A DNA stretch of 64,000 nucleotides. Origin: Trebouxia sp. TZW2008. Lineage: Eukaryota > Chlorophyta > Trebouxiophyceae > Trebouxiales > Trebouxiaceae. Made by a program: the position numbers and the translations under genes. Below are positions 162-64,000 of the stretch, piece by piece. The stretch lies in assembly GCA_002118135.1 (NCBI GenBank), contig BDIU01000118.1:62001-126000 (forward strand), in the 5' to 3' direction. Positions within the stretch are counted from its first letter, which is position 1; every line of letters starts with the position of its first letter. The notes under the pieces were generated by a model. It saw only the letters and a list, made by a program, of their open reading frames with translations, was not told where the DNA came from and did not search any database.

Positions 162-1988
162 CAGGAAGACATTGACTCCACCCCTGTTGCCTCCATGTGT
201 GTTGAGCAGGTGGACTGTTGTGCGTTCCAGCTTGCTCATGGAGTTCTCTAGTAGAGCAAGCTGTGGTGCTGTCACCTGCAATCCAATTTGCGCAAATCAA
301 CTATCTGTATAGCAAAATGTGACAGCTACGAGCACACACTGTAATTGCATGCAAATTTGTTGCATCTCAACACAGCAAACATCAGGACCTGCTCAGACTG
401 TATGACTTCAGAGGCGCATCGTCTGACTACGTAAGCAAATCAAGTGCCATTGGAGCATACTTGTAAACATCAAGCTGTTTGATGACATACTGTCAAACAA
501 GGCAGCTTATAAGAGACTTTGCAGCTGTGCTAAATTAAACAACAAATGCATATATATGGACATGCAGTGATAGGTAGCAGATGCAGCAACTGACAATGCT
601 AATTCGTTGTCTGCTGTGACTCACCCAACGAATGCAGTCTACAAAATAGCAGTCTATAGACTCTTGCAGCAGATCACCAGCATCACTCTTGAGAATGATG
701 GCCAGTTGTCACTGTGCGCTGTGACTCACCCAGTGGATGCAGTCAACTGAACAGCAGTCTATGGACTCTGGCAGCATGTCGTCAGCATCAATTTTCAGGC
801 ACGACATCGCCAATTGTCACTTTGAGCTGTGTAAATGCAGTCTGCCACACAGCAGCCTATAGGGTATTGCAGCATTTCGCCATTCAGACACAACATTGCC
901 AATTGTCACTCTGTGCTGTGGCTTACCCAATGAATGCAGTCTACAGGACAGCAGTCTATGGACTCTTGCAGCATGTCATCAGCATCAATCTTCTGTCCCA
1001 TGGCTCGCGCTCTTCCAAACTCTGGCTCCATCTGATACGTCTTTGGACATACGCTGGTGCAGTTTGTACAGCCTATGCATGTCAGCTCGTCCACAAAGAC
1101 CTGAACCCAAGGCAAGATGTGTGTTAGACGTGCTTGGTTGCAAACAGAGCGTAGAGTAGGCACAAGTGGCCACTGCAAACTGATCAAGCTCACGCGAGCT
1201 CTCTGACATGATGAGCATGTTGTTACAGCGCTTCGAGCACTGAGTTGTTGTCTAGACATTGAATGCTACATGCTGACAGGTCAAATGCACAATTACCTGG
1301 TCACGTTCATACGAGCCATCAGAAAAGGGGTTGACAGCATCGCCAGAAATGCCAACAATAGCATCGTAAGCCGCTCGTTTGTCAGGGTGCTTGAGTGTCT
1401 GCATCGAGAGAGCTCAGCAGTGTGATATCAGCTTTAACATCAGCAAAAGTGAGCTCAGCTGTGAGTGTGTGCTGATACCTCATATATCTCGTTGATGATG
1501 GTTGAGAACTCTTGCGATTCATCAGTTTGGCTGAGGTCAGGGTGACACTCTCTCATCATTGCATAGTAAGCCTTCTTGATTTGGGCATCGTCTGCATTCC
1601 AAGGCTGCATGGCACAAGCAGGACTTAGAACCAGATAGTAGATTTACAGACCAACAGGTGCGGGGAGAAGCGTCAGACGTACAATGCCCAATATGCTGTA
1701 GAAGTCCTCTTCCTCTGGCTCAGACGAAGGTGTTCGTGCGAAAGCAATAGGTTCAGCTTCTGTCGCTGCAGCTGCCGCTGTGACGCGTCGTCCACTGTCG
1801 TGCTGCCGACCAGAGAAGCATGGTGCAGAACTAGACAAAGCTTGTCGAAGCCTCGCAGGGCTTGCAGCTGCATGACTGGCCGCGCTAGACGGGGTCGGGC
1901 GCAAACTGGCTTGTACACCGTGACTATTTCTGATCACGCACGCTTGTGCGCATTCACTGCGAGCAGCAACCGTCATACGGATTGACAT
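162..1988 (-). CDS. Plastid DnaJ-ferredoxin fusion protein (DJC76/77/82-like), 3' end uncertain
   Basis: Exons on the minus strand: 1988-1683, 1604-1479, 1398-1297, 1100-927 and 275-162, all phase 0. The ATG at 1988 opens a Ser/Ala/Arg-rich stretch of about 90 residues that reads as a chloroplast transit peptide. A J domain follows (EEEDFYSILGI, then AYYAMMRECHPDLS with the HPD motif, then HPDKRAAYDAI). After it comes a [4Fe-4S] ferredoxin-like module: the cysteine run CIGCTNCTSVCP, then FGRARAMGQ and a second cluster CCPVDCIHW. The last exon seen (TAPQLALLENSMSKLERTTV) matches the region after the ferredoxin module in plant homologues. These proteins are stromal J-domain co-chaperones with a putative iron-sulfur or redox role. 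The end is unresolved: a GTAGGC donor at 161 implies another exon, while reading through reaches a stop within about ten codons. The intron between exons 4 and 5 carries exon-4 copies. Confidence 0.88.
600..900 (-). repeat. Three extra partial copies of DnaJ-Fd exon 4 in the next intron
   Basis: About 100 bp units at roughly 615-695, 720-800 and 805-895 repeat the 3' end of exon 4 and the start of the following intron. The middle copy still reads KIDADDMLPESIDCCSVDCI, then HW, then a GTGAGT donor. The leftmost reads SDAGDLLQESIDCYFVDCIRW, also followed by GTGAGT. The third is badly decayed. The real exon ends in the same TGG codon followed by GTAAGC. Confidence 0.85.
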
Positions 1989-7414: not shown

Positions 7415-13150
<5,736 letters not shown>

Positions 13151-14107
13151 CTGAGAGGATTGAGTGCAAGCAAGCGGGTGCAGATGTGCTGCCAGAAAAC
13201 TTGACAGAGCAGAGAAAAGGGAAAAAAGACAAGTCTACGCTGCTAGGCATCATAACGGGAGCCCATTGGCAGCCCGGGATGGCTGCTCTCAGAGCAGCAA
13301 ACACTGGCAGAGCAAGTATGCAGCATGAGGCAGCTGCATCTACATTTTTGTGAGGGTATCCATGTGAGACATGTCACAGTCCACCAGCAGGATGCAGTTT
13401 TGTCGGTGGCAAGGGTCATGCTGTTTGTCAGGTGTATTTGCTAAGGTCTTTCTGGCCCCAATACAGAGTGCATTGTGCAGATGGCAGCAGTTGACCAGTG
13501 TCACTTTGCTAAATCATTGATCATTTTGAGCTAAAGTTGCTGAACGCCATTTATTATGCTGCAGCTTTTGCGTTCTGTTGACCTTCTGTGTTGAACATGT
13601 CACTTTTTGCAATTCAGCTGCACTTGCGCAGTTCCATTTGGCCTGCCTGCATTCTGATGATCATACTGCGCAACTGCAGCTCTTTGATCGAAATTGTCAT
13701 ACGACATAGAACACATGGCATTTGCCTCACAAAGAAATGAGGTTGCAATGCCAACTTCGGGGACAGATACAAAGCCTTAAGGTTAAGCTTGTAGGCTTAG
13801 CCAGTCTATACACGTCTGCAACTTTACCCCCATGGCTGCCATGTTGTGAGGACACAAAATGATAAGCGCTGCCAAATTGTGCATTGCTTTGAGCCCTTGC
13901 TGCAACTGCAGTAGGGCACATAGGAGGGTGCCTGCAGCTGCTGCTATGCTTTGCAAGAAACGCACGTGTTACGGCGAAGCAGCTCCTTGCGGACATCAGG
14001 GACAGTGCAACAGCCGCTGTCGTCAAGCTATCGCGCACTACAGCGCTGTCACGCCGTCATCGCATCGCAGACTGCAAGCACACACCAAGCCGCCGCCGTG
14101 TTTGGAG
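13151..14107. other. Intergenic region between NTRC and KRI1
   Basis: This interval should contain the NTRC 3' UTR and the KRI1 promoter. The last 200 bp before 14108 are richer in CpG, as at other gene starts in the window. No further gene is supported; a 100-codon minus-strand frame at 13727-14038 overlaps the KRI1 leader and shows no domain. Confidence 0.5.
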
Positions 14108-17100
14108 ATGCAGGGTAAGTCGGCCCAGCTCTTTGACGGAGGCGACACAGAGCGCGAGCCTGTCGACCTGGAGCTCACTGTCAACACAGAGTATGCAAGA
14201 CGACTGCAGGTCAGCTTGAGTGCGCTGCAGCGCGACAACGTTGCCAGGCTACGCCGAGTTGAACGAGTTCTGTTGCAAACGCTGCATCTTGAGGCGTAGC
14301 CTGCCTGTGTAGCATAACAAGCAGCGCGAGGAGCTTCACAGACTTCAGGAGCGGCACCCGGAGATCGCTGCCAGGGCTGCTGTGCGTGCAACAAATGTCC
14401 AAGTGTCTGACTCAGACGAGGAGAGCTCAGAGGAAGATGAGGTGTGCACTGGGTGCAACGAACTCTGCACACAAGCATGCATTGCAGCCATCATGTAAAT
14501 CGTCTCACCTGTGCATACAATCAACTTACACACATAGCAGGGTGTGCATCTGTATGCTACTCTCTTCTTGACAAGTTAGTGTCAAGTCTTCATGCTTGGC
14601 TCAGCACTTGTGGTGGGCAGGTTACAGCGCAGCTACAGTTCAGTCCACAGATTACACAAATGCAGCAGGGCCAGCAACGGCTATTGCACAATTGGTATTC
14701 CGCGTGTGATTGTGCAGCATATGCATCAGCTTAGGTGTGAGTGATGTCACAGATACGCTTGTGTCGAACTGACTTTCAGGTCTCAAAGTCTTCATGCTTG
14801 GCAGGATGATGGCTACATCTCAAGCAAGGTGGAGAAGCAAATATTTGAAACCATGTCCAAAATACGCAATCGCGACAGCAGCATCTATGACAGCAACAAG
14901 CATTTCTTTGCTGAGCCCACTGAAGACAACAAGTCTGACCGGGCTGGCAAATCCAGAAAGAAGAGCAAGCCTAACAAGCCAATGCTCCTGAAAGATGTTA
15001 TAGCACAGCAGGTACAGTCATCTCCTGCAGTTGATGCCTATGAACAGCAGCCACTGCATTCAGACAAACTCAGACAGGCCTTGATTTGACAAGGTTCGCC
15101 AAGCTGTGCTGCATGATTTATCCATGTTCTGTGCAGCGGACAACTCCAGCGTATATGTTGACAGATGGTGCATACGTGCAAGCTATCAGATCTTCTATGC
15201 TACTGTTTCTTGCAGGCATTAGAGCATGGAGCAGAGGCTGCAGAGAGTGATGAAGAAGACAATGAGCAGCCAGCTGACCCAACTTACGTGCAGGAGCAGC
15301 AAGATCTGAAGCGCAGCTTCCTTCAGGTATGTTGATGCTGCTGCTCAGTTCATCTGCATGTTGAACTTGACTCTGCCATGCCTCAGGTGATGTGTCATCA
15401 GCTACAGTGCATGCACATGACCAGTCGTTTGTTATGCTGCTGATTGCCATCAAAAGCGGCTGGTCAGCTGGAGTCTGACTTTCATGTCAGAAGACAAACT
15501 GCTGATGATCATCCTGACAAGCAGCATCTTGTTCTCATCATGTGGCGCAGCTTTGCTGCATCAGGGCAGCATCCCAAGCAAGATGTCTAAAACACAAATG
15601 CTGTGGATGTGTAGGCTGTCGAAGCTGAGGAGTCACAAGCAGGTGATGATGAACTTGGTGGCGGCGTGCTGCGCAAACGGCAGCGAGTCAGTGCTCAGGA
15701 GCAACAGTCTGATGCAGACGCTGCAGATCTGCAACAGGTCTGTCTTCTGCAACTCCTGCAATGCACATCAACATGGTGAATGGCACAAATGGTGAATGGC
15801 ACAAAGGCAAAAACTGTTCTTGCTGAGTGACTGCATGCAGAAGCTATCTGGCGCCAAAGATCAGATTGTGGCTTGAAGTCTCAGCGTTACAGAAGTTGCA
15901 GAAGGAAAGGGAAAACAAACTGCTGTCTCTTGTTTGTATCAAGATGAAGGGTGAATGACACAAAAGCGAAAACCGCTTTTTGCCCAGTGACTGCATGCAG
16001 AAGCTTTTTGCTGCCAAAGGTTAGACTGTGGCTGCAGCTCTTGAATGATCTGAATCCAATGTGCTGTGCAGTCTCTGGACAAGTACTTTGGAACTGATGG
16101 ACCTTTGAATGAAGACGACAAGTTCCTGAGGCATTATGTGTTGAACAAGGTACAGCTTGTCAGCTTTTTTATTGCGTACAGTCACAATGCAAGTGATGTC
16201 CTGCAGTCATCTTGCATCCCTGTCATTGTGTCGTGTGTCATCACTTGCAAGACACCACAATTTCAAGCCCCTGTTGTGCCCTGACTCTTTATGATGAAGA
16301 GCAGCAGATTTTTTGCTGACACAGGTGCACTCGACTTGTGCCGTCGCTTGAGAGTCTAATGTATTGTTTGCGTTTCCTGTTGCTAGCAAAGGTTCAGTGA
16401 GGAAATTAAGAATGCAGGGATGGGTAGATGCTGACAACAATGGGGTGCCAGCTTATGAGGAGATTTTGCTGACACACTGGTGCATTTGATACATTTTCTA
16501 CTGCTAGATTGGTTCAAAGAGGAATGAAACTGTGAAACTGCAGGGATGGGTAGATGCTGATACTGAAGGGGTGCCAGCTTATGAGGAGATTGTGGGAGCT
16601 CATGATGACGAGGATGAAGCATATGATGAGCAAGCAGATCAATTTGAGGCTGCCTATAATTTCAGATTCGAGGTCAGCTCAGCTCAAAAAGCTTATCTTA
16701 CTGCATGCATCAATCAGCTTGTATTACATGTTGTCTTTTGACACAACTGTCAAACCAGAAAAGGCAGCATGCCAGCTTTCCCACCGTCACGTTCTGCTGC
16801 AGCATTGCCAACACATCTCTGCACTTGCAGCACAAAATGTATACAGACCATCAAGCACCATATTCTTCAGTATCTTATACTCCCAAAAACTTGCATGTGA
16901 TGCACTAGCGCGGATGTATTGAGCTTTTCACAGTTTGCACTGCATTTTAGTAGTCTATACTCTCAAATACTCAAGTATTGCATATCAGTGTATGACATTA
17001 TGCGTATTGAGGCACATATGGTGCTTCACTGACACAGACCATATGCGCCTCAAGACAGCTCACAATCTGATGTCTTCATTCAGCATTGCCGAATGTTACT

Positions 17101-20100
17101 GATCATGCAGGAGGAAGGAGGCAGACAGATGGTGACTCACCCCCGTGTCGTGGACCATGTTGTACGAAATCTTGATGGGAGGCGCAAGCGCAAAAGACCA
17201 GATTGTCTGTGTCATGTCAAGATATCTCACTGGCTCATGTCTGCACGCGGCATTGCTGAATGTCTTTGTTCATGCAGGAGGAAGGAGGCAGACAGATGGT
17301 TACTCATCCACGTGTCATGGAACATGTTGTACGGAAACCTGATGAGAGGCGCAAGCGCAAAAGAGCTGAGAAGGCTGAGAGGAAAGCAGCGGAGCAGACA
17401 ACACAACAGCAAGAAGTGAAGCGCCTCAAGAATCTCAAAAGTCAAGAGATACAAGACAGGTACATCCTCACAACAGTTGCTGCTTTAGTGCATGCAAACA
17501 GATTTGAAAAGTAAAAAAGACCAAGACAGGTACATCCTCACAGGGATTAGCGTCTTACTGCCTGCAAGCATCGGGGAAACATTTTCACAGTGATTGCTAC
17601 CGCTCTGGCCAGAGGCTCCCACTATGACGCCTAATGGCGTAGACTTTTGTTTATCTACTTACTCAGTGAAATACTGGCAGGAGGACAATGGCAGTCCAGG
17701 TGTGAAAGCACATGCAAGTTGTGAAAGCACATGCAAGTTGTGAAAGCTGTCATATGCAGCTGATGGTCTGTAAAACAGCTCGGGTCTGGGGTATCAATGA
17801 TTCTGGATCCACATCTATAGTTACATCAAATGCTTACTGCTCGATTTTGGTCCTTTCACCCTGAAAGTGCTGAGCATGAGCATCTGGAAGGCAAGCAAGC
17901 ATCAGCAGCTAAGGCTGCCACTCAAGCTGTCAACGAAGTGCCACCATTGTGCAGTGTACACAGAACAGTAAGCTCTCTTGGTGAAGGCACTCAATGTAAG
18001 GGCATTGCTAATGCAAGGACAATGCGATTGTTATCCAATCACTGCCTTCTGACTATAATGGCACCTCTCAGTACCGACAATTTTGATACAAGAATGATGC
18101 ACTTTGTGACGAAAGCAGTCATTGCAAACAGAAGTAACTGTATACGCACTGTGTTTTACACAGCTTGCAAGACAGCTGAGATGTGGCATGCAGGCTGCAA
18201 AAGATCAAAGACATAGCAGGGGCATCTGGGCAGGACAATGCAGCGTTTGATGCTCTCATGAAGGGTGATTTTGACCCTGATGAGTATGACAAGCATATGG
18301 AAGCTGCTTTTGGGGATGACTACTATCAGGTGCTGTTCGTGCGCTGACTGTCTTGCATGTCGTGAATTGGCCAAGCCATTGAGTCATCCTGTGTGCTTTT
18401 GCAATCAAAGTCCGTGCCTTTTCACCTTCCTGCATGCCATCTTTATCAGAACGTTGCAGAGCTAATGCTATATTCCATCCTGGGCTGCCTCTTTCAGCAG
18501 AGGCTCGTGCTATGACGCCTAGCGGAGTAGGCTTTCCCTTTTTTCTAACATGTTCCATAGTTGTAGGTACAATGGCAGTCATCCAAGGGCGCCAGCTTGC
18601 AAATAGATTGGCACGAGTAGTTCTGAATGTCTGTATATATGTCATAGGGTGAGGAAGATGATCCTGGACAGATTCTGGATGATGAGTTGCAACAGCAGCT
18701 CAATGAGATGGCGAGCTATGATAGTGATGCAGATGAGCAGCCCCGAGAGGAGAACTCCTCAGGTATGCAATATCACAATTGCCTTGCAGTTTCATTCGTT
18801 CGTTCGTTCATTCATTCATTCATTCATTCATTCATTCATTCATTCATTCATTCATTCATTCATTCATTCATTCATTCATTCATTCATTCAAAATGCATGC
18901 CAGATAGGCTCAGCAGGCCCTGTCAGGTACGTACTGGAGCAATCAACCACCTTTAACCAGTTTGGTCCTGTGCTGACCTGAACCAATGGCCTTCTGCTGA
19001 AGCCAATCTAGGTGTTGGGCAGACCCTGGCCAACTACTACACAGGCTGTGATGTATGCATAGGATGCTGAAAGGAAACCCATTCAAAGCTCAGGGATTGA
19101 CTCCCTGTAGACATGCCAAATGCTCGTTGCAGCAAGTCACGAGGGCATGCATGGAAAATTGTGATTGGCTCTGCAGCTGCAGCTTGCTGTGCAACCCTTG
19201 CTGCGTTTGAGAATGGCACATAGTGTCATCTTCAGCTGTTTATCCTTAGCTTTAGCATGCAGTAGCTGGGTTGCGGGCCAAGCATGCTGACTTTTCTTAC
19301 GGCTGCAGTCATAACTTGTAAGCTTGCTTTGCTCAAGATGATTATTTGAGAAGGTTCTATTATGTTATACTGTTACTATGTTATACCATCAGACTGCCTG
19401 GACCTCATGGACATGCAGTCGTCGCTGCTATGTGGCACATGCGATCAGCCTTGTTGACTGGCTAAAGCATGCGAAATTACTCTCTCTCTTTGCTTGAGCC
19501 TGTGGCATGCTGAGTGCTGTTATTTTCTCAGGGGATGAGGCAGCAGAGAACAATGCACAAGCAAATGCAGCAGAGCTAGCAGCTCAGCGCAATGCAGTGA
19601 GCAAGCTGTTGGGTGAGTACAACAAGCTGGATTATGAAGATGACATAGGGGGGCTCAAGACCCGCTTTCATTATAGAAATGTTGGCAAGGAGGACTACGG
19701 CCTGTCCACTGATGAAATCTTGAGACTCAATGACAAAGAGCTGAATCAGCTAGTTGGGCTTAAGCGCCTGGCTCCATACCGTGAGGATAGGGGCAAATTC
19801 AGACCAAATTACGCCAAAATGAAGGAGTTGAAAGTCGCTGAGGAAGACAGGCAAGCAAACTGGCAGCAGAAACAGCAACGCAGGCAGCAGCATAAGCAGC
19901 AGCAGAGGGCCAAAGCAAAGCAGGAGAAGATAAGTGCACCGTCTGCAGCAGCTGCAGAATTACCAGCAGCTGACATGCAGTCTGCAGATGCCAAAGCGCA
20001 GCGTATGAAGTCTTTTGAGAAGTTGTCATTGAAAAGGAGCAAGGCTGATGGCTCTCATGCTGTTACCAAAAAGCCAAAACCTTCAAGTGCTGAGCATACT

Positions 20101-32642: not shown

Positions 32643-35600
32643 TCACCAGTTGCGTCCGCTCTTGATCACGTACAAGCGGTCCACCACGTCCTGTGCAGTA
32701 TGGCGCTGCTGCGGGTTCTGCCTCAGGCAACCACAGACCACTTCCTCCAAAGTAAACAGGCCATGCACTCTGTTCTTGACCCGGGTCACACGAGGCCACT
32801 GGGGCAGGCCCACCTGCAAAGGGCACAGCACGCCTGGGTGCAAGTCGCAACACAAGGCGTGCGCAAGCGGGCCATGGGCCGTAATGCCACAAGCAGTGTG
32901 GGATGTGTGAGAATGCATTGGCAGTGCCTTGTGCATTCTGTCACGTGGTGACATTGCCAGTGGCAGTTTCATGGCTGCACTGCTTTATTCAAAGCTAATT
33001 TGATTTCATTGGGTTTATCTGCTCATTGAGCGGATCTTCATGCGAGCTAGCGCACTTCTTCTTGCTCATTTCGGCAGTGCAAACAAACTGCGCTTGACAC
33101 TTGAACGGCGTGCTACCCAATGCCACCCTAGTGGAATTACGTCTTCTCAAACGTCACACATTCATCCCTGGACACATTCTGCACAGTGAGTCACCTGGTG
33201 ACAGTAGTCAGGCCCAGCCAGCAGGCTCTGGGCGAATGCCAGGGTGTGGTAGTCATCATTGTCCTGCCTGTAGGCGGCCACAGCCTGTCTGTGCTCCTGA
33301 CTTCTTGTGCCGCCAACCATGTCCAGCAGCAACAGCCCGAAGGCCCACATGTCATGCGAAGGCATAGGGTGATAGTAGCCGTCCCGGTGCAGCTGGTCAG
33401 CCATCTCAGGCGCTTCCATGCCTGCCGGGTACCTGCAACATCAAACCACTGCTCAAGCATCTCCTAGCAGGGCTTCAGCCCTCAGTCATTCATTCATTCC
33501 TTCATGCCTTCATTCATTCATTCATTCATTCATTCATTCACTCAATCATTCTGAACATATGCTAGACAGGCTCAGCAGGTACGCATTAGAGCAATCAACT
33601 GGCCCCGACTAGTTTGGTCCTGTGCTATCCTAAACCATTCAAACTGTGCATGAAGGGAGGTGAGGTCCTTGTAGATGGTTGTCTGCCCTTGACCTCAGTC
33701 TCGCAGACCTTGGCCTTGTAATGGCCACACAACATGCCCCCTGCCTTTTTTCACGGCAGATCCCCAAACTCTCTGATGTTACATGTGGAAAATCCTAAAA
33801 CCTGCAGCTACCTCATCGCCCCTAACAAAATTCAAAGGTCGTTCGAGGGGTTTCGGAAACCCTCTACGCTCGCATCCTTATGCTTATTACTGTGCTCTTT
33901 TTATGTTGTCTTGCAAGCAAAAGTCATAGTGATGGTCTGGATGTGGTGACTTATCCCAACTGTATGCGTCTTTCTGAATCTTTTGCAAATATATTGGTTT
34001 GTCTCAAGTCACGGGGTGTATATATACAACTAATGGCGCACATGCCCCCCGCAGGCAGGAGCACAAGGCGCAAAACTGAGCAAGCTGGGCAGACTGACCA
34101 GGAGGTGCCAAGGCGGGTTCTGGACGTATCTGCCTCAAACATGCGAGCAGCGTTGCCAAAGTCTGACAGGCGCCAGCCAGACTGGTCCAGGGCCTGAAGC
34201 ACATTGCCGCCGTGCAGGTCTTGGTGCACCACTCCCTTGCTGTGCACCCTCTCCAAGGCTCTGGCAATGTCCAGCGCAATCACCACAACATCACTGCAGT
34301 CTTCAGACAGCCTGCATAGAACGCTTGCTCAACATTTGGCATCAGTGAATCACCACAGCTTGACTGCAGTCTTCAGACAGCCTTGCCATGGTTGTCTACG
34401 CTTTGCTCAGCATTTCATACCCGACAGGTCAAAAGCGCAATGATTGTTGCGCATTGTCCTTTGCTTCCCAAAGCACACATGGTGAACCATGACTGCCTGT
34501 TCCTCAGTGTAAACTCACAATAATTGTTGCGCTTTATACTTTGCTTCCCAAAGAACATGGCAACCATGATTTTCTACGCTTTGCTCGACAATTGGCATCA
34601 GCGAATCACCATACTCTCCTTCTCAGTGATCAACACTCTTGAGTACTTACGTGTTACATCCAGCGTATTGGTCCCAGCGTATTGTGTCCGTCGTGATCTG
34701 CACTGCATCCTTGTGATTCATGCCCTCAAATACTCAAGTATTGCACATTGCGTATTGTGATTCACTGCTTGGCATGGTGAGCAGGGTTGGGGGGCTGCTC
34801 ACCAGGCAATTCAGCCGGCGCATGAGCAGCACAGATGTCAATTGAATGAATAAATGAATGAATGAATGAATGAATGAGCGAATGAATGAACTAATGAACG
34901 AACAAACGAAGGAATGAATCAATGAGCAGCACAGAGGCTGAAATGCACAGCAAGCACAAGGTGCGATGAGGGGGGACCGCTGAACTGAGTAAGCACAATG
35001 CGCGACTAGGAGGAAGCGCTGACCTGAGTGTGGGATAGCAAGCACAAGGCGTAATAAGGGGGAAGCACTGACCTGAGGGTGGAATAGCAAGCTCAAGGCG
35101 CGATCAGGAGGAAGCACTGACTTGAGTGTGGGGTAGCAAGCGTGATTAGGGGGAAGCGCTGACCTGAGTGTGGGATACAGCAGGCTGCTTAAGCTGCGGC
35201 CCAGGCGCTCTACCACCAAGAAACCGTGCTCCTGCGGGTAAGGCCCTTCAACATCCTCCTCCAGCACCAGGGCAAAGGCCTGCATGACGTTTGGGTGGCG
35301 GCACACTCCCAACAGCTCCGCCTCTTCTTGCAGCTCGCACTGGATGCCGGTCTTCAGGACGGTTCCGGGCAGGTTGGGGCTTTCCCAATCCTGCACAGCC
35401 CCATTGCGACCCTCTGCTATCTGGTCTCCTGGGGCATCCCACCGGTGCTGCACCACATCATCACAGTTGTGACATCTCCACGGTGTCAGGAGTTCCACTC
35501 AATCGATCAATCAAGCAGTCAGTCAATCAACCAACCAACCAGCCAATCACTTAGTCAGTCAGTCAGTCGGTGAATCAATCATTCAATCAATCAATGACTA

Positions 35601-38600
35601 TATACTGTACTGTTACAAGGGACCCAGCAGGGGTCCATGCAAACAATGTTTGACCAGTTTCATTCGAATGCATGTAACAGCCAAGCTTGCTGCGTTCATG
35701 CGTCAGAACAAGAAATGTTGGTTGTTATCATGCGCATATCATAGATGATTCACAGATGAAAGGCATTTTGCAAAATGGCGGACAGGAGCAGGGCAGGGGT
35801 TGTCCAAGCTATAGGGGGGTGAGGCATAACTCACCATGTTAAAGAGGGGGACTTGCCATTGGGTGCGGCAAAGCTGCAGCTCAGCCTGCAGTGCCTGCAC
35901 CTCCTCCTGCAGCGCTGTGCTGTCTGCGATGTGCTCAGCCTGGCCGCAAGTGGGGTGGGGGAGGGTGGTGGGGGGGTCAGAGAAAGGCAACCCAGTCTCA
36001 AACTCAGGCTGCTGCTCATACTCGTGCTCAGGGCTGCTGTCAGAGTCGCTCCACTGAGCAGTGTCTACCTGCATGCAATCACAGCGAAACACATAACTAA
36101 TATGCAAAAACATCAAGGCAAACATCAGGTACACGCTTGAGCCACAGATGCTTAGTTCAGCATACAGGAAGCAGAATGCGTTGCGAGCTGTCATGCAACA
36201 GAAGAATTTGAGTGGCCCAGCAACCCCATCAAAGCTTCCCACATTCAGATGCCTGGCTACAGACCGCATGGCTGAGTGAAAGTCACGCAGCAACTCAAGC
36301 AGCACAGCAATTGCCTGGTGCTGGGCAAAATCAAACAGCACAGCAAGCACCTGGTGCTGGGGTGAAGTCAAGCAGCGCAGCAATCACCTGGTGCTCAGGG
36401 TGAAGTCGAGCAGCATAGCAACTACCTGGTTTTGGGGAAAGAGTCAATCAGCACAGCAGTTATGTGGTGCTGCTTAGTTTCACCCGCAGCACAGCAATCA
36501 CCTGATGCTGGGGACCAAGTCAAGCAGCACAGCAATCATCTGGTGTTGGGGGTGAAGTCAAGCAGCACAGCAATCACCTGGTACTGGGGGTGAAGTCAAG
36601 CAGCGCAGCAATCATTTGATGCTGGCGGTGAAGCCAAGCAGCAATTACCTGGTTTTGGGGGGAGAGTCAATCAGCACAGCAATCACCTAGTGCTGGGGTG
36701 AAGTCAAGCAGCGCAGCAATCACCGAGTGCTGGTGTGGAAGCCAAGCAGCACAGCGATAAAACTGGTGCTGGGGGTTGAAGTCAAGCAGGGCAGCAAGTA
36801 CCTGGTGCTGGGGGTGAAGTCAAGCAGGGCAGCAAGTACCTGGTGATTGGCACTCATCGGGTTAGGGCCGGGAGTGGAGGGGCTAGGGGGCTGCCTGCAT
36901 GCCTGCACCTGCTGCTCACTCTCTGCTAGCTGCTGCTCACGTTTGGCCAGCTGCTGCTCTAGCGCCTGCACCTTGGCTTCCAACTCAGCAAGAACGCTCT
37001 TGTTGTGTTCCATCCTGGATTCTGTCTCCTGCAATGAACTTCAGTCAATTCAGACAGATTGCGTTTCCGGTGAATGTTTGGGCAGTGATCATGTGCAAAG
37101 GCTAGGGGCAAACCTGTAGACTTTTGGCAGACTAACCGTTGAAAAGGACTGCAGCTCCCTTCATGCTCAGCACAAATGGTTTAAGATAGCACAGGACTGG
37201 TTGCAGACAGTTGATTGCCCCAGTACGTACCTAGCCGGGCCTGCTGAGCCTGTCTGGCACATAACTAATGTGAATGAATGAATTGAATGAATCAGTCAAT
37301 ATGGGCTTCTGCTATCGTGACAATGTATGATCTCAGCCAAGACACAAGGGAATGAGCAAAAATGCAGTGACACCATGGTCATGTTTGCGTCAGCTCAGAT
37401 GTGTGCAAAATCACAAGCTGCTGAATCTCTGGCTTGTTGAACAATGTGTCACGATGATCATGTGTCATTGATCAGCATGTGACATGGGTCAGCATGCATT
37501 GCAGGAATGTCAGCATATAAGCCCTAGTGTGGAAGAGCGTCAGAAGTCGACACACTGCAGCAACGGCACGAGGCAGCGATGAGAGTGGGAATGGACACTC
37601 TGTCAGACAAGCAGTGCTTGCCACAATGAACTTCAAGTGTGCTTTACCTGAACGTTGGAAGACAACTCAAGGCTCAAGGCAGCCTGCTGCTGCTGCAGAT
37701 TTGCATTCTGCTGCTTGACTGCCTTCAGCTCCTGCACAGCATTCACAATCATCATCAGCAAAGGCTCACTGCCATTTGAGTGTTCACATCAAAATTCATG
37801 TTGGAACAGTCATCTGCAGCAGTCAGACAACCCTGTGCTTCTAGTCTTGCAGCATGCCGCAGCCTTTATGAACAAACAATAATAATGCACAGGCGGATGC
37901 ATGACAAGCACTGCCAAGCATGGGTCATCTTTGCGTTGAGCACAAAAGAAAACTGCATGTCTTGATCTTCAAAGCTTTTGCTAAGCTTAGCAAGCTAATA
38001 AGACAAGAAGCAGATTGCTGGCATTTCAAAACCTGACCAGACTTAGCAGATGCTACTGGAAGATCGTCAGACATCATATCACACACATACTGTGATCTGC
38101 CCTACATGTAGCTTGCCAGAGGTTTGGTCAAAACCTGAGGCAAGCTTCTGATCAAGACAGCTTCTCACAGACGCTCACAAGAGCCTTGAGCTACGATTGA
38201 CAGGAAAGTGGCAGTGATCTGCAACAGCCAAAAGCTGAGGGAGTGTTCTAGGTAAAGCTTGCCAAACAAATGCACATCAAAAGTTGCCAAACATGTACAT
38301 TTGCTGAGTAATAGCTCACCTTGGCAGCCTGACTGCTTGTCCTCCTCAGATCGTCCAAGATTTCCTCAGCTGTTTGCCTCCTCTTGTCAGCTGCTATCAA
38401 ATCCGCCTCCAAGCCTTGCCTTGCTGCCATCTCAGTTGCCAAGTTCACTTCTACATTGCGGCTCTTCTTCTTCAGCTTGGCCAGGCTGCGCTCTGCCTGC
38501 TGCCTTTCCTTCTTCAGCTCAGTCACCTCGGCTGTCAGAGCCTTGGTCTTAGCACTGACGTCCTGTTTGAGAAGCAAAACTGATGTTAGAGTTTGACTAT

Positions 38601-49144: not shown

Positions 49145-49790
49145 TACTTGCTGTCCTTGCATATTCAAGGACAGCAAACAAATTTAGAGCGCACAAGCAG
49201 ATGTAGCTTAGGGGTTGGTCTGCCGTGCACAAGTGTACAGTTATACGTTGCGATATGGTCAATTGTATACATATTGCAGTTGATATTGCCGGGCTACTGT
49301 CTTTCGCAGAGGCTCTCAGCATGACGCCTCACGGCCTAGACTTCCCTTTCCTTTCGTTTTCCTGTTCTTTCTGGTTGCTTTGTATGCTTTCATGCACAGT
49401 GTCATGCATGTGGGCGTGCATGCTGTAGGCACATTGGTACTAGTGATCCGTTCTGGTTAGTTGTAGTTGTACAGTCACTGATACTGCTGCTGTAGTTTGC
49501 ACTTGGTAAACCAGACGTGGCGTTGTGCAATTAAGCAGGTTGCATTCATCATGAAAGTCTGGTCTGTGGCTGCATGCCTTGAGCCGGCACTAGCCACTGA
49601 TTAGGTCAACAGCTGCCTAGCCTGCTGCGCTTTGTACATGCGCGATTGGCCATCGCGGTGTCATTGTCGGATTCAGCAGGCGCTGCACGTTGCGGGACCC
49701 GCGACCGAAACCAGATTACCAGATTACTGTGATCAAATGCACTATACCGGGAGACCTTGTCGCTGAACACTGCTTCGTGATCACTCAGAG
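49145..49790. other. Intergenic region between IWR1 and FANCD2, with a repeat
   Basis: 49290-49440 is the third copy of the GACGCC-type repeat (gcagaggctctcagcatgac, then gcctcacggcctagacttcc). The last 150 bp are CpG-richer and probably hold the FANCD2 promoter. Confidence 0.5.
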
Positions 49791-55700: not shown

Positions 55701-58700
55701 TGTCATGCTTGTGATGTAGCACATGCACAATGGGGAAACAGCGCCTGACTGATGTGCTTGCGATGCAGCACATGCGCAGCGGAGACTTGGCGGCGGAGAG
55801 GATTGGCATCATTGGTACCATCAAGCTGGTGGAGCGCCTGGCCACCCCTCCAAAAACCCCCCAGCACCCGTCACAGCCCACAGGTGCTTCCTGCCTGTGC
55901 TTTTCTCCTTGTGACTCACATTGCCACACTTCTGACAGCCATAACCACAGTCTCTTGGCATTGCAGATGCACTGTGTCTTGACAACATCACATGCAGTCT
56001 CAGCATATCGTGAGCACAAAGAGTTCACAGCCAGCCCATTCTACAAGAAGTAAAAGGCAGCCCTGTAAGAGTGGTCAATTTTACACTTGCCTTGGAACAC
56101 ATCGCATAACTGCATCCCACGCCAATGGATCACAACCTTGTGGTAGCTGAAGAGCTTGAGCGGTGGACTACTTCCATTGCATGCAGTGGACAGGAGCGCA
56201 GAGGCACAGCAGCTGCTTAGCAGGAGCTTTGAGGCAAAGCAGCAAAGCCCCGCCATGTTTGCCCTGCTGTGTGATGAGCTGACTGAAGCAGTCAAGGGGG
56301 GACGGCTGGGGGAATCCCTCACAGCCTGGCTGAGAGGGGCTGCCACAGATGAGCTGGAAGGCTTTTTAGATGACTGCACCCCTGACCCACCCCCTGTTCA
56401 GGTATGTAAGTATTTTCTCTGCCAATGACATCCACAGCAAGCCAGTCAGTCATATGAGCAGTGATGCAGTGGGGGAAAGAGTGGGCATGAGCAGGGTGGG
56501 ATGGTCATAGACTGACTAAGAGCAGCTGCCTTTGATGGGGTGGAAGCCTTCCCTGGTGACAACATTCCTGAAGCTCTGCTTCCCAACACATGCATAAGCA
56601 AAGTATTGCATCAGCATGCAAAATCATGGCAGATGGCAAAAGCTTTCATCACTGAGCATGCGGGTTGTTAAGCAGCTTGATCATTGCACCATGCATGCAC
56701 CTAGACATTCCACAAGAGGGGCAACAGTGTGCTGCTCAATCCTTGCACTGCATAATGCTTTGAAAGCTTAAATTGCCCTATGCATGAGACAGACCTTGAA
56801 TGTGAAAGCTTGACATTGTGGCTTGACACCCTTTTGTGTGTGCAGTGCAATGGGGGTGAATCCATGGCTGCAGCAAGTTGGATGAATCTGAACGGCACAG
56901 CAGGACAAGTGATGCTGCCAGTGCTCAGAATTCTGGCTTCTCCAGACCAGCAACACAGGTCAGTCTCACCCTGCTTGTCCGACCTTGTGCGGCAAGCCTG
57001 CTACGCAGCAGTTGTCAAGATGCATACATGCGCTCTGTTTCGTCTTAAGGGCCTTGACACCTAGACTGAGCTGTGTGGCCTTCTTGTGGAGGCACTCTCT
57101 GGTGTACCTGTCTGCAGTGCAACCGCTGGCGCTCACTCTGGAGCTGCAGTGATTTCACCCTATAGTGCACCTCTATACTAAGTTGACAATGAGCTATGAT
57201 CCCTTTGGTATGCAGGCAGTCCTTGGTGTACCTGTGTGCAGTGACACGCCTGGCACTCGCACTGGAATTGCAGTCCATGGGCAATCTGGAGGGCCTATCT
57301 GCAATCCTGGGCTGCCCCCTGCTAATGCCTCACATTGACCTGCTGCACAAGGGCGCCCTGATGGGGCTGAATCCTGAGCAACAGGGACTGGTGTGCAGTG
57401 CCCTGCTGCTGGCGACCAATTGGCTAAGAGAGCTGGTCAATGCTTGGGCCCATCATGTGCAGCCTCAAGGGTACAATCTGTAAAACAGTTTACCAAGAGT
57501 CACCTTTGTATGACACTGATTCCTCCGTGCATGCCTCACATTGACCTGCTGCACAAGAGCGCCCTGATGTGGCTGAATCCTGAGCAACAGGGATTAGTGT
57601 GCAGTGCCCTGCTGCTGGCAGCCAACTGGCTCAGAGAGCTGGTCAACGCCTTGGGCCATCATGTGCAGCCTCAAGGGTACGCTCATCAGCGCTAGATGCA
57701 TGGCATTGACACTCTCCCTCACACCTAACCCCACCCCCCACCCCTCATGCCCTGCTTAACTTGGTTACACCAGGGCGCCCTGCTGCTGGTGGCTAAAGGG
57801 CCAAGAGAGCCGGTCAATGCTTAGGGTCATCATGTGCAGCCTCAAGGGTATGCCCGTGACAGCCATCAGCACGAGCTTGATCTCTGGCATTTGCCCCAGA
57901 TGTGCAGCCTGGATGATATACCTACCAAAACCATATGCATGCCTTGCATCACCTGCCTTTTTCTCTTTCACATACGCTGGGATAATTACCAATTTCAAGG
58001 GTGCGCTTATCAAAGGCATGTGCATGCCTCATGCATGGTCTGCTGCCTCGTTTTTTTTTGCTGCAACCCAGTTGATCTGTTTGTGTTCTCAAACACAATA
58101 CTCCTGAAATCGTTCATTTTGTGCCCAAAAAGGGCTGCGAGATAAGAAAGGTGCCTCAAAGAAAACATTGCTGTGGTCTTTTTTTGCAGATGTGAGGGTG
58201 GAGCTGAGGTACAGCAGAATCTGCTGGTGCGCCTGCAGAACCTCACACAGCTCCAAGCCCTGCTGGCAAACACCCTTGCCATTATGCCCTCCCAGCCCAA
58301 CCTGCAAGTTGTTGCAGGCCAACAGGCTCCTGTCCATCAGCAGGAGAAAAGCCAGGTTCTTGCCACATTATTCTGACTGTCGCCATAGCATCACGCCTGC
58401 TACTCTGCACACACTATTGCTACTTGAGCTATGTCTTGCATGACGAATTGATGCTTGCGTGACTATGTGCGAGCAGTAGTGTACTACACTATATGAGATC
58501 GTCTTCCTGACCAGTTTGCAGCTTGATCTCCGACACAGCAGAATGCTGCAAAGATTTGTTGCGCGCTCAAGATTTTGCAGTGCCTACATTTGTGTCGTGG
58601 CAGTGCTCTATGTACGCTTGTGTCTTTCATGCATCTTGTCAGCTGCATATGTTGTAAGGCTGACTGTGCTCAGCTTGTCATTGGCAGGTGGGCAAAGGCA

Positions 58701-61700
58701 AAGCAGGCAGGAAGGCCAAAGCCGCAGTGACAGGCACAGAGGACTCTGGCGAGACACATGAAGACCAGGAGAATGTGGACAGCAATGCAGCGCCAGGCTG
58801 TGAGGTGCAGAAAGGACCGGCAGCACACAACCCGACATCCCGGTGAACAACAGCTCTTCTTCTGCAGATTCAATGGACTGATTCAGTTTGTTGAGCACAG
58901 TCAGTTGGGTACAGAAGTTTCATTTGAACACACAGAACTCAATGCCAGAATCAATGAGCGTGCCCCAGCTGATATATATACCAGCCTGAAACCAGACAAG
59001 GCATAGTGTGCACACACAGACCTTGCATGAAAAGGAAACGAGCAGCTTGATGACAGCAAGTATGCTGACCACAATGCCACTCACCAAAAATTGAATGCAC
59101 ATCACGACCCCACTTAATGCTGGTGCTGCTGCTGCGCTCTGCTGCTTGCCACTTGGCAGCAATTGCACACTGCTAGCTGCAAGTTTGCTGGCATTGTGCA
59201 CTTGCCAAGAGCCAACCTTGGTTGTAGAAGGATGCCTTCAAGACAACGCCATGTTTTATTGCTGCTGGGTGCTGTCTCAACAGGCTGAGTTACGGCCACT
59301 AGAGTTACAAGTGCTTCTTCCACTAGATACAGTGCACTGCACAGCCCTGCCGCTGCCACACACGAAATGACAGCCCTCAGTCACTACAGTGCATAGATAC
59401 AGCCGTTGTTGCAGGGCATTGTCACGAGAGATGAAGGCTCAGTTATGGCCACTGGAGCTGCATGTGCTGCTTCTGCCGGGGCAGGTGCAGTGCACGGCCC
59501 TGCCACAAGCAACCTTGGCCCCTGCTGCCTTCCTGCTGGATTGCTTCACAAACAGTCATCACAGCAATGAATGTCTGTGCTGTAGGGTACTGTCAAGAGA
59601 GGTCAAGGCTAACTTACCGCCACTGGAGCTGCATGTGCTGCTTCTACTGGGGCAGATACAGTCCACAGCCCTGCCCCAGGCAGCTTTGGCCCCTGCTACC
59701 TTCCTGCTGGATCAGCTGAAGCAATGGCATATGTGTTGCTGCAGGGTGCTGTCACAAGAGGTGAAGGCTTCGTTGCTGCCAATGGAGCTGCACGTGCTGC
59801 TTCTACTGGGGCAGATGCATTGCATGCCTCTGCTCCAGGCAGTCTTGACCCCTGCTGCCTTCCTGCTGGATCAGCTGAAGCAATGACATCTGTGTTGCTG
59901 CAGGATACTGTCACAAGAGGTGAAGGCTTTGTTGCTGCCAATGGAGCTGCGCGTGCTGCTTCTACTGGGGCAGGTGCAGTGCATGCCACTGCTCCAGGCA
60001 GTCTTGACCCCTGCTGCCTTCCTGCTGGATCAGCTGAAGCAATAACATATCTGTTGCTGCACAGTCACAAGAGGCTCCGTTGCTGCCAAGGAATCTGCAC
60101 ATGCTGTTTCTTGTGGGCTGGTGCAGTGCACAGCTATGCCTCAGCTATGCAACAGTGACACATCTATCGCTGCAGAGTACTGTCAGTAGCCAATGAACAA
60201 TGGCGTGTGACTAGCATTGATTCTTGCTGCAGGGTGCTGTCACGTGAAGCGAAGGCGCAATTACGGCCACTGGAGCTGCATGTGCTTCTCCTGCTGGGGC
60301 AGGTGCAGTGTACAGCCCTACCCCAAGCGGCCCTGGCCCCTGCTGCCTTCCTGCTGGACCAGCTTCATGATGAGCTGGTGCAAGCGCTCACTCTGTCAAG
60401 GCGCCCAGCTTTCCTGAAGGCTGCTTCACAAGAGCCTGCGTCAGGTGCTGGTTCACATGGTTGTGATTTTGGTCTAATCTGATGTCCGCCATAGGACATG
60501 TTGAATCTTCTCTGCTGGATCCGCTTGATATTCAGCTGGTGCCAGCGCTCAATTTGTCTAGGCGCCCAGCTTTCCTGAAGGCTGCTGCTTCTCAGGAGCC
60601 TGCATCAGGTGCTGTTCTGCAATGCAAGGCCTGCAGTATGTCTGTAAGTCCACAAGGTTTCCTGAGACTTATTTGGCTTTGTTATAGTATGGCTTAAATC
60701 TGTTCTGCTGAAACTGCTAACTGAGATATTGACAAGTCTGGCAATGCGCCCCATCAGCGCTAGCATAAGGTGTCATGGAGCAGTGCTTCTGATGATAGCA
60801 GCTTTGCTGTTTTATGACAAACTCTTCTGCCATATATGATGCACAAGACGTTCTTCGTTACAGGTATTCAGCAAGGCCTAAACGCAACACGTCAATGCTA
60901 TTAAATGATTGCCCTGTTCTGCTGAGCTGCTTAACCTTGGGCCTCAACTCTGATCTTTTGGTTTGGCATGTGCTGCATGATTCATGCTTGGTATGACGCA
61001 GGACAGGAGCAGACCACTTCTTGTAATGGCAGTATTGATCACCAGTTGCAGTGTTCTTACAATAAGAGTGTCGTTGTCTGAGAGGCCTTAGACCATCAGA
61101 TGACTGTATGGTGCAGGCAAGGAGCAGACCCCTCAGCAAATTTGGGGTGCCATGGAGGGCGTGCTGCCCGCCTTGCAAACCCTGCTCACAAACTGTAACC
61201 GCATGGCACATGGTAAGGCCCAATATGCTTCAACACACGCCGCTGCATCAGTTGAGCCAGTGTTGAGACACTTGCCACATCTACGATGCCTCTTTATGTT
61301 GTGTAACTCTGGCAGAGCATTTTGTTTAGGCTCCAATGGCAGACTTCAGGTGAAACAACATGCATCATTGGGATGACAACATGTTCAGGATTGCCTGCAC
61401 ATCCTTCATTGCATCAACTGTACAAGCCTCTTGAGCATGTTTAAATCAGTTTTTGCAAGATCTGCAAGCATGCGAAATCCCAGTCTGCATAATTCCCACT
61501 ACCTTTGCAGCACTTCAAGCTGCTCATCGTTGCTTGCAGGTTACAAAGTCTCCACACAGATTGCAGGGTTGATGTCTGAAAGTATCTTGCTTCTGCTTGC
61601 AGGGCAACAGAGTCAAGAGGGGATTGAAGAAGAGGTGTTTGCCGCCAGGGTTGAGGGGGCCAGCCAGGACCCCACCCCAGACTTACTCATCATGGGTCAC

Positions 61701-64000
61701 CCTGCTGCCACTGTTGCCCTAGCACCTGCACCAGCAGCTGCAAGGTCAGCTGAACCTGCTTCTATGCAGTGTATCCACACTGTCAATTGCTTGCATGTTG
61801 CATGTTGCATGTTGATTGTTATGTATGGTGCTGCATTGCCGCTATGCTGCTTGCTGACATGTCTGTCAACAGCCACATGCGTCTCCATCAACCATAAGTT
61901 CTGTCCAAGACGAGATACATCAGGCAACGATAAACAGGCTGTGGCTCGGCATGAAGATATGCAGATCCTGACCTATCCATACCATGTCCCTGTCATTTCA
62001 GTGGAGGTTGGCATGAAGCAAGATGAAAGTTGGCTGCCATATGCTATCCACCCAACTCAGATCCTTGGTAGCAACACTCACAGCATTCGATGGCAATGCG
62101 TAATATGCAGTGCCCAATTACTTTGGCTGATATGCAGCTACTAACTATAATATGCAGTGCCCAAGTACTTGGATATCATAGTGCTGAAGCAACAGAGAGG
62201 CAGCAATGGATCAGTTGCCCAAAGACTTGTTGACTCAGGCCACTAGTTGCTGGTTGTTGTCTTCTTTTGGCTCGAGTACAATTACAACACCCCGTACACA
62301 CTCCTCTGGTAATGGTCGGTGTGTCGAGTCTCCATTATATAAGACTTATATCTGTCAGACAAGATGCGAACAGCATGCAGCCAATCAACTGTAAGTCACA
62401 TTTATCGATAGCATTAACGCCGCCCTCAGTCACATGGGTTTTGCTTTCTGCTTTCACCACTTGATGGGAACTTTCAAGTAGAGGGGGCTTGGTAGGGTGG
62501 CTTCTGGTGATTGACAGGAGTGTTCATTACGCTTTCATCTAGTTTGTCCACCGAGAGTCAAACCCTATAGCAAATTTGACATGGACCCTGTTGCTGAGAG
62601 GCCCTAGTAGCACCCAACTCCTGTCCAACATCTTTCCTTGTGACTTCTGACCTAAAGCTGATTCTTGCCAAACTCTTGTAACAGACTAATGAATGTATTG
62701 ACAGTGGCACACAACTGAACCACTACTCGCCAAACTGTGTCACTTCATAAAAAGACTTGTCGCTATTTATCCGATTGAGGAATACAGGTACTATCCTTGC
62801 TAGTACAATGCTTGTGACACAACTGTGATGGACGCACAGTCTTATTTCTGCGCTCTCTAAACTCCTTGTTGACTTTATCCTTGACATGGGGAGAATTGCA
62901 CCAATAACGAATGGCCCAAAACCTGGCCATGATGGTATCTTTGGGAAGTGCAAACCTGTCAACTGACTCCTCAAAGCCATTGCCAGTCACCCCAAGAACC
63001 TCACACTTCGCTCCTGATGTGTTGCATCATTATCAAGGTCAGCATCACTAAACCAGATCACCTTCTGGGGGCAGATCCTCTCCCCATCCACCTCTATGTT
63101 AAGTGGTGGTGTTGTCTTAAAATTCACTGCCTCGATAACAATGAGGGTTGACTGGCTAAAGGAAGGGCACCGCAGCTCATTGCTGCATGCCTTCCTGAGG
63201 GCTTTAGGCCTACAGCCCCAAAGGTCACAGCCAGAGTGGCAAGGACTCTACTACAGCTGCTGCTGCAGAGCCCTGTCGGCTATCTTGGTGAATCTATGGC
63301 TCACATATCCACTGTCGTTGCAGAGTTGTGCAGCAGAGCTTGCACTGCTTTCAGCAGCTAACAGCTTCAGACTGGCTAAAGGAAAGCCAGTATAGCTCAC
63401 TGCTGCGTGCCTTTCTGAGGACGTTTGGTCAGCAGCCCCAGGGCCAAAGTCAGAGCAGCAATGACACAACTGCAGCTCCTGCTGCTGTTACGGCCCCAAT
63501 GCAGGCAGAAGAGGTAAGGCTTGCTTTCAGTAACTTGATATTGATGTAACAAGCAATGCTCCAGCTGCGCGTGCAGAACAGATCTAGCAATACGCCTGCA
63601 GAGGAAGTGCCCCGGGCGTGTTTGATGCATTTGTGCTCTCGCGCAGAACTGCATTCTAGCAGCGTCACTGTTTCATGATTGTGCATACAGCTTCATGGTG
63701 AACTGCTCAGAGCATGCAAAGCGACAGGTGTTGACTAAAAACAATGCCTTTGTACTGTTTCCTATCATATAATATTGTACGGCAGATGCTCTTTGACACG
63801 TCCTAGGCTTGGAGGGTGACAGTTCAGCCATAAAAGCATCAATTGCATGCACCTTGCTAGCTTGATTGTTGCTTCTGTTTGTGAGTTTGATCGCTGGTTA
63901 CAGGTCATCAAAGCCTGTGTGCAAGCTGGTCAGCAATTCAGAGGGCTGTCCAGAGGGGCCCAAGGCATTTTGGAGCAGGAAACGTCCCTGTTGCACATCC
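49791..64000 (+). CDS. FANCD2: FANCD2 (Fanconi anaemia ID2 complex subunit), 3' end outside window
   Basis: Exons: 49791-49889, 49958-50158, 50271-50437, 51018-51186, 51627-51728, 52138-52194, 52241-52351, 52769-52829, 53406-53507, 53745-53902, 54128-54298, 54715-54894, 55259-55285, 55319-55432, 55769-55883, 56187-56401, 56846-56958, 57216-57470, 58190-58355, 58688-58842, 58868-58908 (doubtful), 60233-60450, 61117-61212, 61603-61744, 63324-63513, and 63904 on. Apart from 58868-58908 the phases agree. Helical-repeat blocks align with FANCD2: EVLGGLRAHLGSRQAGEVTA, IGIIGTIKLVERLA, NGGESMAAASWMNLNG, LLATNWLRELVNAW, LHDELVQALTLSRRPAFLKA. FANCD2 pairs with FANCI, clamps DNA and is monoubiquitinated in crosslink repair. 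The aligned acceptor position is Gln, at the 55432/55769 junction. The intron after 54894 starts GC. Start: first ATG, followed by GKRPGQYVDSPDAAKKLKR. Confidence 0.9.
50690..50800 (+). repeat. Short tandem duplication in FANCD2 intron 3
   Basis: Two adjacent units of about 54 bp (tgctgccaagcatgt, gcaaatattgcaattccaa) and a weaker third near 50515-50550. No exon similarity was seen. Confidence 0.7.
51405..51581 (+). mobile_element. MITE copy 5
   Basis: About 177 bp, from tacagtaacctctcttcatg to gttataaagaaacattactg, then ta. Internal gtaaggacaatttgat and ctgactgcagtggtgcctct match the family. It lies in FANCD2 intron 4. Confidence 0.75.
53215..53300 (+). repeat. Minisatellite in FANCD2 intron 8
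   Basis: About five units of 15-17 bp with consensus gtgccacactaact. Confidence 0.8.
55700..55768 (+). repeat. Duplicated acceptor and exon start, FANCD2 exon at 55769
   Basis: gcttgtgatgtagcacatgc at about 55707 parallels gcttgcgatgcagcacatgc at the real junction, an offset of about 50 bp. The upstream copy has tag in place of cag. Confidence 0.6.
57083..57150 (+). repeat. Decayed 5' fragment of the FANCD2 exon at 57216
   Basis: tggtgtacctgtctgcagtg, then cgctggcgctcactctggag and ctgcagt, parallel the start of the real exon (tggtgtacctgtgtgcagtg, cctggcactcgcactggaat). Confidence 0.7.
57530..57855 (+). repeat. Two partial copies of the 3' half of the FANCD2 exon at 57216-57470
   Basis: The copy at 57530-57682 stays in frame (HIDLLHKSALMWLNPEQQGL, then LLLAANWLRELVNALGHHVQ) and keeps the donor (caagggtac), but has no acceptor at its start. 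A shorter, stop-containing copy lies at about 57773-57855, again ending cctcaagggtatg. Confidence 0.88.
59262..60232 (+). repeat. Tandem array of partial copies of the FANCD2 exon at 60233
   Basis: Copies start at about 59268, 59415, 59586, 59745, 59904 and 60063, and the true exon is at 60233; the spacing is 147-171 bp, mostly 159. Each copy repeats the first 130 or so bases (LELHVLLLLGQ, then a Pro-Ala-rich AAFLLDQL). Copies 2, 4 and 5 keep gcag before the first base; copies 4 and 5 are the most alike. Copies 2 to 4 share one open frame from 59389 to 59886. None has the exon's second half or its donor. Confidence 0.9.
60508..60612 (+). repeat. Copy of the 3' half of the FANCD2 exon at 60233-60450
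   Basis: It reads LDPLDIQLVPALNLSRRPAF and then LKAAASQEPASGAV, parallel to the exon's second half (LHDELVQALTLSRRPAFLKA). It lies in the following intron, so both halves of this one exon have been copied outward. Confidence 0.85.
62723..63110 (-). pseudogene. Degenerate ORF in a FANCD2 intron, possible mobile-element remnant
   Basis: The minus strand reads VIWFSDADLDNDATHQERS in one frame (63095-63010) and continues in another as ESVDRFALPKDTIMARFWAI, then NKEFRERRNKTVRPSQL to a stop at 62763. A frameshift between the two parts is the simplest reading. The composition is protein-like and differs from its surroundings. The family was not recognised; a transposon-derived ORF inserted in the intron is my guess. 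Confidence 0.4.
63139..63240 (+). repeat. Copy of part of the FANCD2 exon at 63324-63513
   Basis: gactggctaaaggaagggca, then gctcattgctgcatgccttc, parallels the real exon (gactggctaaaggaaagcca, gctcactgctgcgtgccttt), an offset of about 217 bp. It reads DWLKEGHRSSLLHAFLRALG. Confidence 0.82.

Follow-up and report, generated by a model that had tools for sequence, protein, structure and literature searches.

Tandem duplication of exons with mutually exclusive splicing concerns whole exons that are held under coding constraint. In the potato RdRp gene, as given in the available text of PMC4974935, a tandem duplication across an intron-exon junction was accompanied by the gain of a new intron. 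Small tandem duplications have also been described, in the accessible part of PMC8355091 (which cites Schiml 2016), as products of repair in mammalian cells, where breaks are staggered or nicks lie close to each other. As for the relevant algae, the word "tandem" is absent from the main text of the Asterochloris genome paper in its available form, where one array of 141-bp units is reported from the ends of scaffolds, the low-GC region concerned also having virus-like genes (PMC6652019), and in the available text of the new Trebouxia genomes paper "tandem" is absent and "intron" occurs once (PMC11126685). The pattern described below was not found for Trebouxia or other green algae among the literature titles and abstract openings listed, and a description may exist elsewhere.

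The analysis was centred on a stretch of 64,000 nucleotides (positions 62001-126000 of contig C114, hereafter the window) in an assembly of 68,541,624 bases and 527 contigs. Positions 20001-30000 of contigs C1-C27 were used as comparison stretches, 24 of the 27 being usable (in two cases with less than 10 kb of sequence), while C6, C24 and C26 were left out of the sample as too short. Five plastid-looking stretches (L014, L024, L025, L026 and L032; G+C 0.39-0.44, with plastid-type genes recognised by eye in some) were excluded, so that the nuclear sample consisted of the window and 19 other stretches, 252,092 bases on 20 contigs. A retrotransposon-like stretch, recognised by eye, is common to L009:8291-10000 and L010:6240-7960 with 97% identity. 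As no annotation exists, gene models were obtained with a gene finder self-trained on the sample, a joint two-strand Viterbi model, to whose training eight 3.2-kb loci around DnaJ matches were added; these loci, picked by gene family and therefore non-random, also enter the pair-level and junction counts and the input lengths of the simulation. The gene finder converged on a CAG|GTRAGY-like donor and a TGCAG|G-like acceptor, with a median exon of 110 and a median intron of 326 bases, and recovered NTRC, KRI1, FANCD2, the kinase gene and DnaJ-Fd; exon counts beyond NTRC and FANCD2 are its predictions. Kri1_C, DnaJ, Fer4_13, Pkinase and PPPDE peptidase domains were identified in the window genes. 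Among the 120 of 8000 matches listed for the NTRC model, a Trebouxia sp. C0005 protein reaches 80% identity, two unnamed matches reach 79 and 76%, and proteins bearing the name of another genus reach 65% at most; the best three of seven FANCD2 matches are from Trebouxia strains. On this basis the organism is taken as a Trebouxia-like lichen alga. The gene finder takes some intronic copies for exons, 47 of 483 predicted exons being flagged as copies, and caution is due in lichen-alga annotation because the copies pass for exons.

Copies of exon edges were found in all five unrelated genes in which the initial annotation had reported them. The true exon tail and donor of DnaJ-Fd, the DnaJ-ferredoxin gene (895..993, minus strand; predicted exon 945-1100), is the source of three extra copies in the following intron, on the same strand, located by local alignment at 806..878 (score 55), 698..796, where the donor GT is retained, and 612..690. 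In NTRC, for which two to three copies had been proposed, the true exon (11548..11721, plus strand), 92% identical over 60 aa to a Trebouxia sp. C0005 protein, is accompanied by two intronic copies of its acceptor and exon head on the same strand, at 11392..11508 and 11245..11361, the second carrying an in-frame stop seen by eye, and by a fragment at 11154-11175. Three copies occur in KRI1 (plus strand throughout): the acceptor and exon head at 16539..16594 (predicted exon 16544-16672) is repeated in the intron at 16413..16468 (89% over 56 bp), the acceptor and exon head at 17217..17364 (predicted exon 17278-17459) at 17050..17197 (84% over 148 bp), and the exon tail at 17452-17472 as a 21-bp copy at 17522..17542 (100% over 21 bp). 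The kinase gene, on the minus strand, has an intronic copy at 34348..34383 (92% over 36 bp) of the acceptor end, 34278..34313, of predicted exon 34099-34311, together with two minisatellites touching predicted donors, namely an array of ~49-bp units at 34949..35177, across the predicted donor edge 35024, and about 14 units of 38 bp at 36291..36850, reaching the predicted donor edge 36840. In the coiled-coil part of the same gene (window 38320-41029) four mutually similar exons lie at ~580-1630 bp spacing, all predicted to be coding, and these duplications seem to be retained in the protein. Tetranucleotide arrays of TTCA, TCAT, TGAA and TCAA are present in predicted KRI1 and kinase introns (18791-18890, 33482-33551, 34843-34925 and 35499-35595).

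For FANCD2 (plus strand), where four copied exons had been reported, three are clear and the fourth is weak (54206-54261/54372-54427, 39 bits). The acceptor and head of exon 57216-57470 (57211..57274) is copied in the intron at 57087..57150 (78% over 64 bp), and its true tail with the donor (57325..57474) has intronic copies at 57531..57680 (92% over 150 bp) and, less similarly, at 57777..57880. The true exon 60233-60444 with its acceptor (60225..60450) has six intronic copies of the acceptor and exon head within 59282..60143, beginning at 59282, 59407, 59578, 59737, 59896 and, for a partial one, 60072, and its tail is copied in the intron at 60507..60614 (84% over 108 bp). Finally, the interior of predicted exon 63324-63513 (63370..63485) is copied in the intron upstream, at 63150..63266 (77% over 117 bp).

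The copies are not peculiar to the window. Self-alignment of the 252 kb returned 112 non-overlapping local direct-repeat pairs, 21 in the window and 91 elsewhere, vs 0, 0 and 0 in three dinucleotide shuffles, and the same search gave no local direct pairs in 50 kb of E. coli; density is gauged against these two references only. Pairs were present in 19 of 19 other nuclear stretches (1 to 11 each), and thus spread over 20 contigs, in agreement with the genome-wide habit suggested earlier, the window being indeed below average (0.33 pairs per kb vs 0.48 in the other stretches). The plastid-like stretches L014, L024, L025, L026 and L032, 42 kb in all, are rich in short repeats: the 79 local direct pairs counted in them amount to a higher density than that of the nuclear sample. 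In the genome at large, the lengthening of introns and the leaving behind of spare splice sites were likewise borne out: copies cover 12.0% of the predicted intron bases (exon, 15.4%; intergenic, 7.1%), and 59 of 787 junctions have, by a strict rule, one copied splice site or more. The direct orientation claimed for the units was also observed, since direct pairs are much more numerous than inverted ones at spacings from 100 bp to 1 kb: at spacings of 100-200 bp, 200-300 bp and 2-4 kb there were 91, 47 and 1 direct matches of at least 36 bits, against 4, 0 and 4 inverted matches, with 21 further inverted matches within 100 bp as possible hairpins. Copies are mostly spaced 60-240 bp apart, the fullest 20-bp bin being 160-180 (104 best pairs of at least 50 bits, to which all pair-level figures refer and which are distinct from the 104 families of the grouped shift test at 36 bits), and in this set the spacing modulo 3 is 38/28/38 for remainders 0/1/2, hence without frame selection. 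The proposed decay of similarity with distance, on the other hand, was not recovered: at 25 junctions with at least two copies, 25 comparisons were less similar when farther and 23 more similar.

The contention that the units nearly always span a junction did not hold, because 19 of the 104 best pairs lie clear of every predicted exon and a further 15 end more than 5 bp before the junction; the bias towards junctions was evaluated by moving pairs randomly along their own contigs (300 shifts, copy-flagged exons left out). At 36 bits, 80 of 112 pairs touched an exon vs a null of 63.1 (sd 4.8), a value reached in 0 of 300 shifts, and copies reaching a junction within 5 bp were mildly enriched (67 vs 54.0, sd 4.8; 2 of 300 shifts), whereas a junction at least 8 bp inside the copy was not (42 vs 45.4). 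The corresponding values were 71/91 vs 53.9, 60 vs 48.9 and 40 vs 43.3 at 50 bits, and 51/64 vs 41.1, 45 vs 38.3 and 34 vs 35.5 at 70 bits; with pairs grouped by family and copies counted as exons, 78/104 vs 62.0 touched an exon, and the junction count was 47 vs 46.2. Exons are therefore favoured and junctions as such are not, so that of the junction bias in the initial annotation only the exon enrichment and the mild excess of copies reaching a junction within 5 bp stand. Among the best pairs, 85 of 104 touch an exon, only 4 of these 85 units being whole exons and 28 staying within an exon or ending at its edge, and many matches end within ~6 bp of a splice site. The geometry is one-sided: the second copy lies upstream in 29 and downstream in 5 of the acceptor-spanning pairs, and downstream in 18 and upstream in 1 of the donor-spanning pairs, which is the outcome if only extra copies falling in the intron survive.

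The fate of the two members of a pair differs. Mismatches at exon codon positions 1/2/3 amount to 13.7/12.4/20.6%, and within the same pair the exon parts are 84.3% identical vs 80.4% for the intron parts (48 pairs, p 3.5e-4), as expected if the copy alone drifts freely and the exon is constrained. An in-frame stop was found in 17 of 85 copies and a gapped codon in 16 of 85, in a set including 15 exon-internal pairs, some of which are repeats within coding exons. The AG is retained in 45 of 56 copied acceptors, and the 39 copied donors read GT in 30, GC in 8 and CT in 1. Plain AG/GT retention is no higher than the neutral expectation (p 0.18-0.81), whereas either GT or GC is present at 38 of the 39 copied donors vs 81-86% expected (p 0.002-0.02), and altered GT donors became GC in 8 of 9 cases (p 2.6e-4, for a test chosen after the data were seen). 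A strong conservation of copied splice sites (37/39 AG, 21/23 GT) was considered and discarded, being biased by short extensions, with the fuller set near neutral. RIP-like hypermutation was rejected as well: CpG transitions are raised, yet all twelve kinds of change occur (transitions 334/595). CpG transitions are ~2.5 times as frequent as those at other C/G positions (37/246 vs 139/2304), a hint of CpG methylation.

The observed pairs were compared with a simulation in which duplications fell uniformly, those that broke an exon were removed and the copies decayed neutrally, indels included, under five settings. For thresholds of 36, 50 and 70 bits, the simulated exon-touching share was 50-63, 56-69 and 58-78%, respectively, vs 75, 82 and 85% observed; the excess was significant in all five settings at 36 bits (78/104, p <=0.005) and also at 50 bits (71/87, p <=0.007), and was lost at 70 bits in the harshest setting only (p 0.10). 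An earlier simulation with few indels had given 48-53%, that is, a larger apparent exon bias. Copies ending at an edge made up 18-32% of simulated exon-touching pairs vs 26 of 85 observed, the edge zone running from 0 to 14 bp past the exon edge in one count and from -5 to 14 in the other. Selection and decay thus account for the geometry and the edges, as well as for some of the excess of exons; what is left of that excess may reflect stronger intron turnover than modelled, errors in the gene models or a true preference. Young pairs are scarce, only 3 of 94 pairs (below 24% mismatch) lying under 6% vs 23.5 under a constant rate (p 1e-8). Under a constant rate, loss of young copies alone cannot yield such an age hump, which could derive from a past wave or from assembly collapse of near-identical copies.

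Concerning the origin of the copies, 53 of the 104 best pairs are adjacent or at most 25 bp apart, and among 70 exon-edge pairs the copies lie less than 20 bp apart in 34 and are separated by a longer spacer in 36. The spacer resembles the flank predicted by simple tandem duplication in 8 of these 36 (7 of 24 edge-trimmed and 1 of 12 extending pairs), and this poor homology counts against a plain tandem model; it may have been erased by intron turnover, or some copies may not have been made head to tail, although a head-to-tail origin of the spaced pairs appears plausible to us. The 48 isolated pairs comprise two with overlaps of 75 and 13 bases, five whose copies come to within 5 bases of each other (3, 1, -1, -4, -5) and 41 that are separated by a gap of at least 9. 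No long repeat was found at the ends of the few isolated pairs that meet cleanly, and clean ends of this kind would agree with end-joining at nicks or staggered breaks, as described in mammalian cells (PMC8355091); from these few cases, break or nick repair, rather than slippage, may be suggested as the source of the duplications.

Taken together, we consider it probable that most of the pattern was generated by a past wave of short local duplication, followed by selection and decay, rather than by a special attack on junctions. Many short local DNA duplications would have arisen in the genes of this Trebouxia-like alga, with copies mostly 60-240 bp apart. A duplication spanning a junction would drop its extra copy in the intron, upstream for an acceptor and downstream for a donor, and the protein would remain intact if splicing still used the copy joined to the remainder of the exon. 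Such duplications would be tolerated, extending the intron and leaving a spare splice site, while exon-internal ones would mostly be purged. The intronic copy would then decay neutrally and the exon copy stay under purifying selection; because the exon copy is constrained, exon-anchored pairs would remain recognisable longer than intron-only pairs. Splicing presumably uses the original exon only, and the wave has probably slowed since. Against this reading stand the exon excess over the simulations, the few young copies and the spacers mostly lacking the predicted homology.

A mutational process targeting exon edges or splice junctions, linked for instance to transcription or to splicing intermediates, might instead copy edges into introns. 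In its favour, exons are in excess over both random placement and the decay simulations, many matches stop within ~6 bp of a splice site, there is a mild excess of copies that come to within 5 bp of a junction, and 17 of 24 edge-trimmed pairs with a spacer are without detectable spacer homology. We nevertheless hold such targeting to be unlikely, as junctions well inside the copy are not enriched, 19 of the best pairs lie away from any predicted exon, and ends at exon edges arise in the unbiased simulation too. A composite version, in which Trebouxia-like algae underwent a burst of short duplication whose breakpoints, perhaps through coupling to transcription or splicing, favoured exon edges, and in which the spare donors were partly kept as usable GT/GC sites and made introns a reservoir of functional decoy sites, is in our opinion rather improbable. 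Selection on the copies as mutually exclusive or poison exons, or as used alternative splice sites, is a still more doubtful reading. Intact sites are common, GT or GC persisting at nearly all copied donors, and the nonsynonymous to synonymous ratio is lower in edge-trimmed than in extending copies (128:110 vs 253:152, p 0.03); except for this leaning of the edge-trimmed copies, the coding constraint and open frame expected of alternative exons were not observed in the copies, which have stops, gapped codons and the codon-position pattern of a neutral copy. Plain AG/GT retention is near neutral, whole exons are rare, the spacing has no frame bias, and an internal repeat was absent at E 1e-3 from the proteins of five relatives (two for NTRC, three for FANCD2).

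It could also be asked whether the copies are the bodies of new introns, gained by tandem duplication of an exon segment, as in the known model that builds introns from duplicated exon sequence and in the potato case, where the duplication crosses an intron-exon junction (available text of PMC4974935). This is very unlikely here, because the introns start well before the copies, the NTRC donor lying at 10654 vs the first copy at 11154 and the FANCD2 donor at 58804 vs 59282; in these two introns, the ones looked at, existing introns were therefore extended, and neither is bounded by homologous positions of two copies. The scarcity of near-identical copies is what collapse of recent duplicates in the assembly would give, yet the copies differ by ~4-28% and are therefore not assembly stutter. 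As regards mobile elements, the two units searched genome-wide matched locally only (3 and 5 places at E 0.001), without the many dispersed copies expected of a transposable element or introner, and inverted copies are rare beyond 100 bp, so that an artefact or mobile elements would be a most improbable source of the pattern.

The copies give a eukaryotic genome a source of intron sequence and of spare splice sites that can be counted, one local duplication being detectable in about every 2.3 kb. They also allow tests of how near-identical spare sites are passed over in splicing, and of whether waves of duplication set intron size.

Mutually exclusive exons share with the algal units the direct, neighbouring coding copies with splice sites, and differ in being whole and constrained, the algal copies being mostly exon parts in decay. 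The duplications ascribed to the repair of breaks and nicks, as far as the available part of PMC8355091 describes them, are likewise direct tandem copies at breaks and represent a candidate mutational source; they were measured in mammalian cells, at breaks that had been induced. Where an intron is gained through tandem duplication (Hellsten 2011, cited in the available text of PMC4974935), duplicated exon sequence becomes intron, as it does here; there both sites of the new intron derive from the duplication, whereas in the alga one old junction is doubled and a spare site is left. The potato RdRp gene resembles the alga in that a tandem duplication at the DNA level crosses an intron-exon boundary and carries the splice signals along, the algal copies appearing unused as far as could be judged. 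According to the same available text (PMC4974935), the potato event concerns one gene, in which an intron was gained, while in the alga many genes are involved and existing introns were lengthened where looked at.
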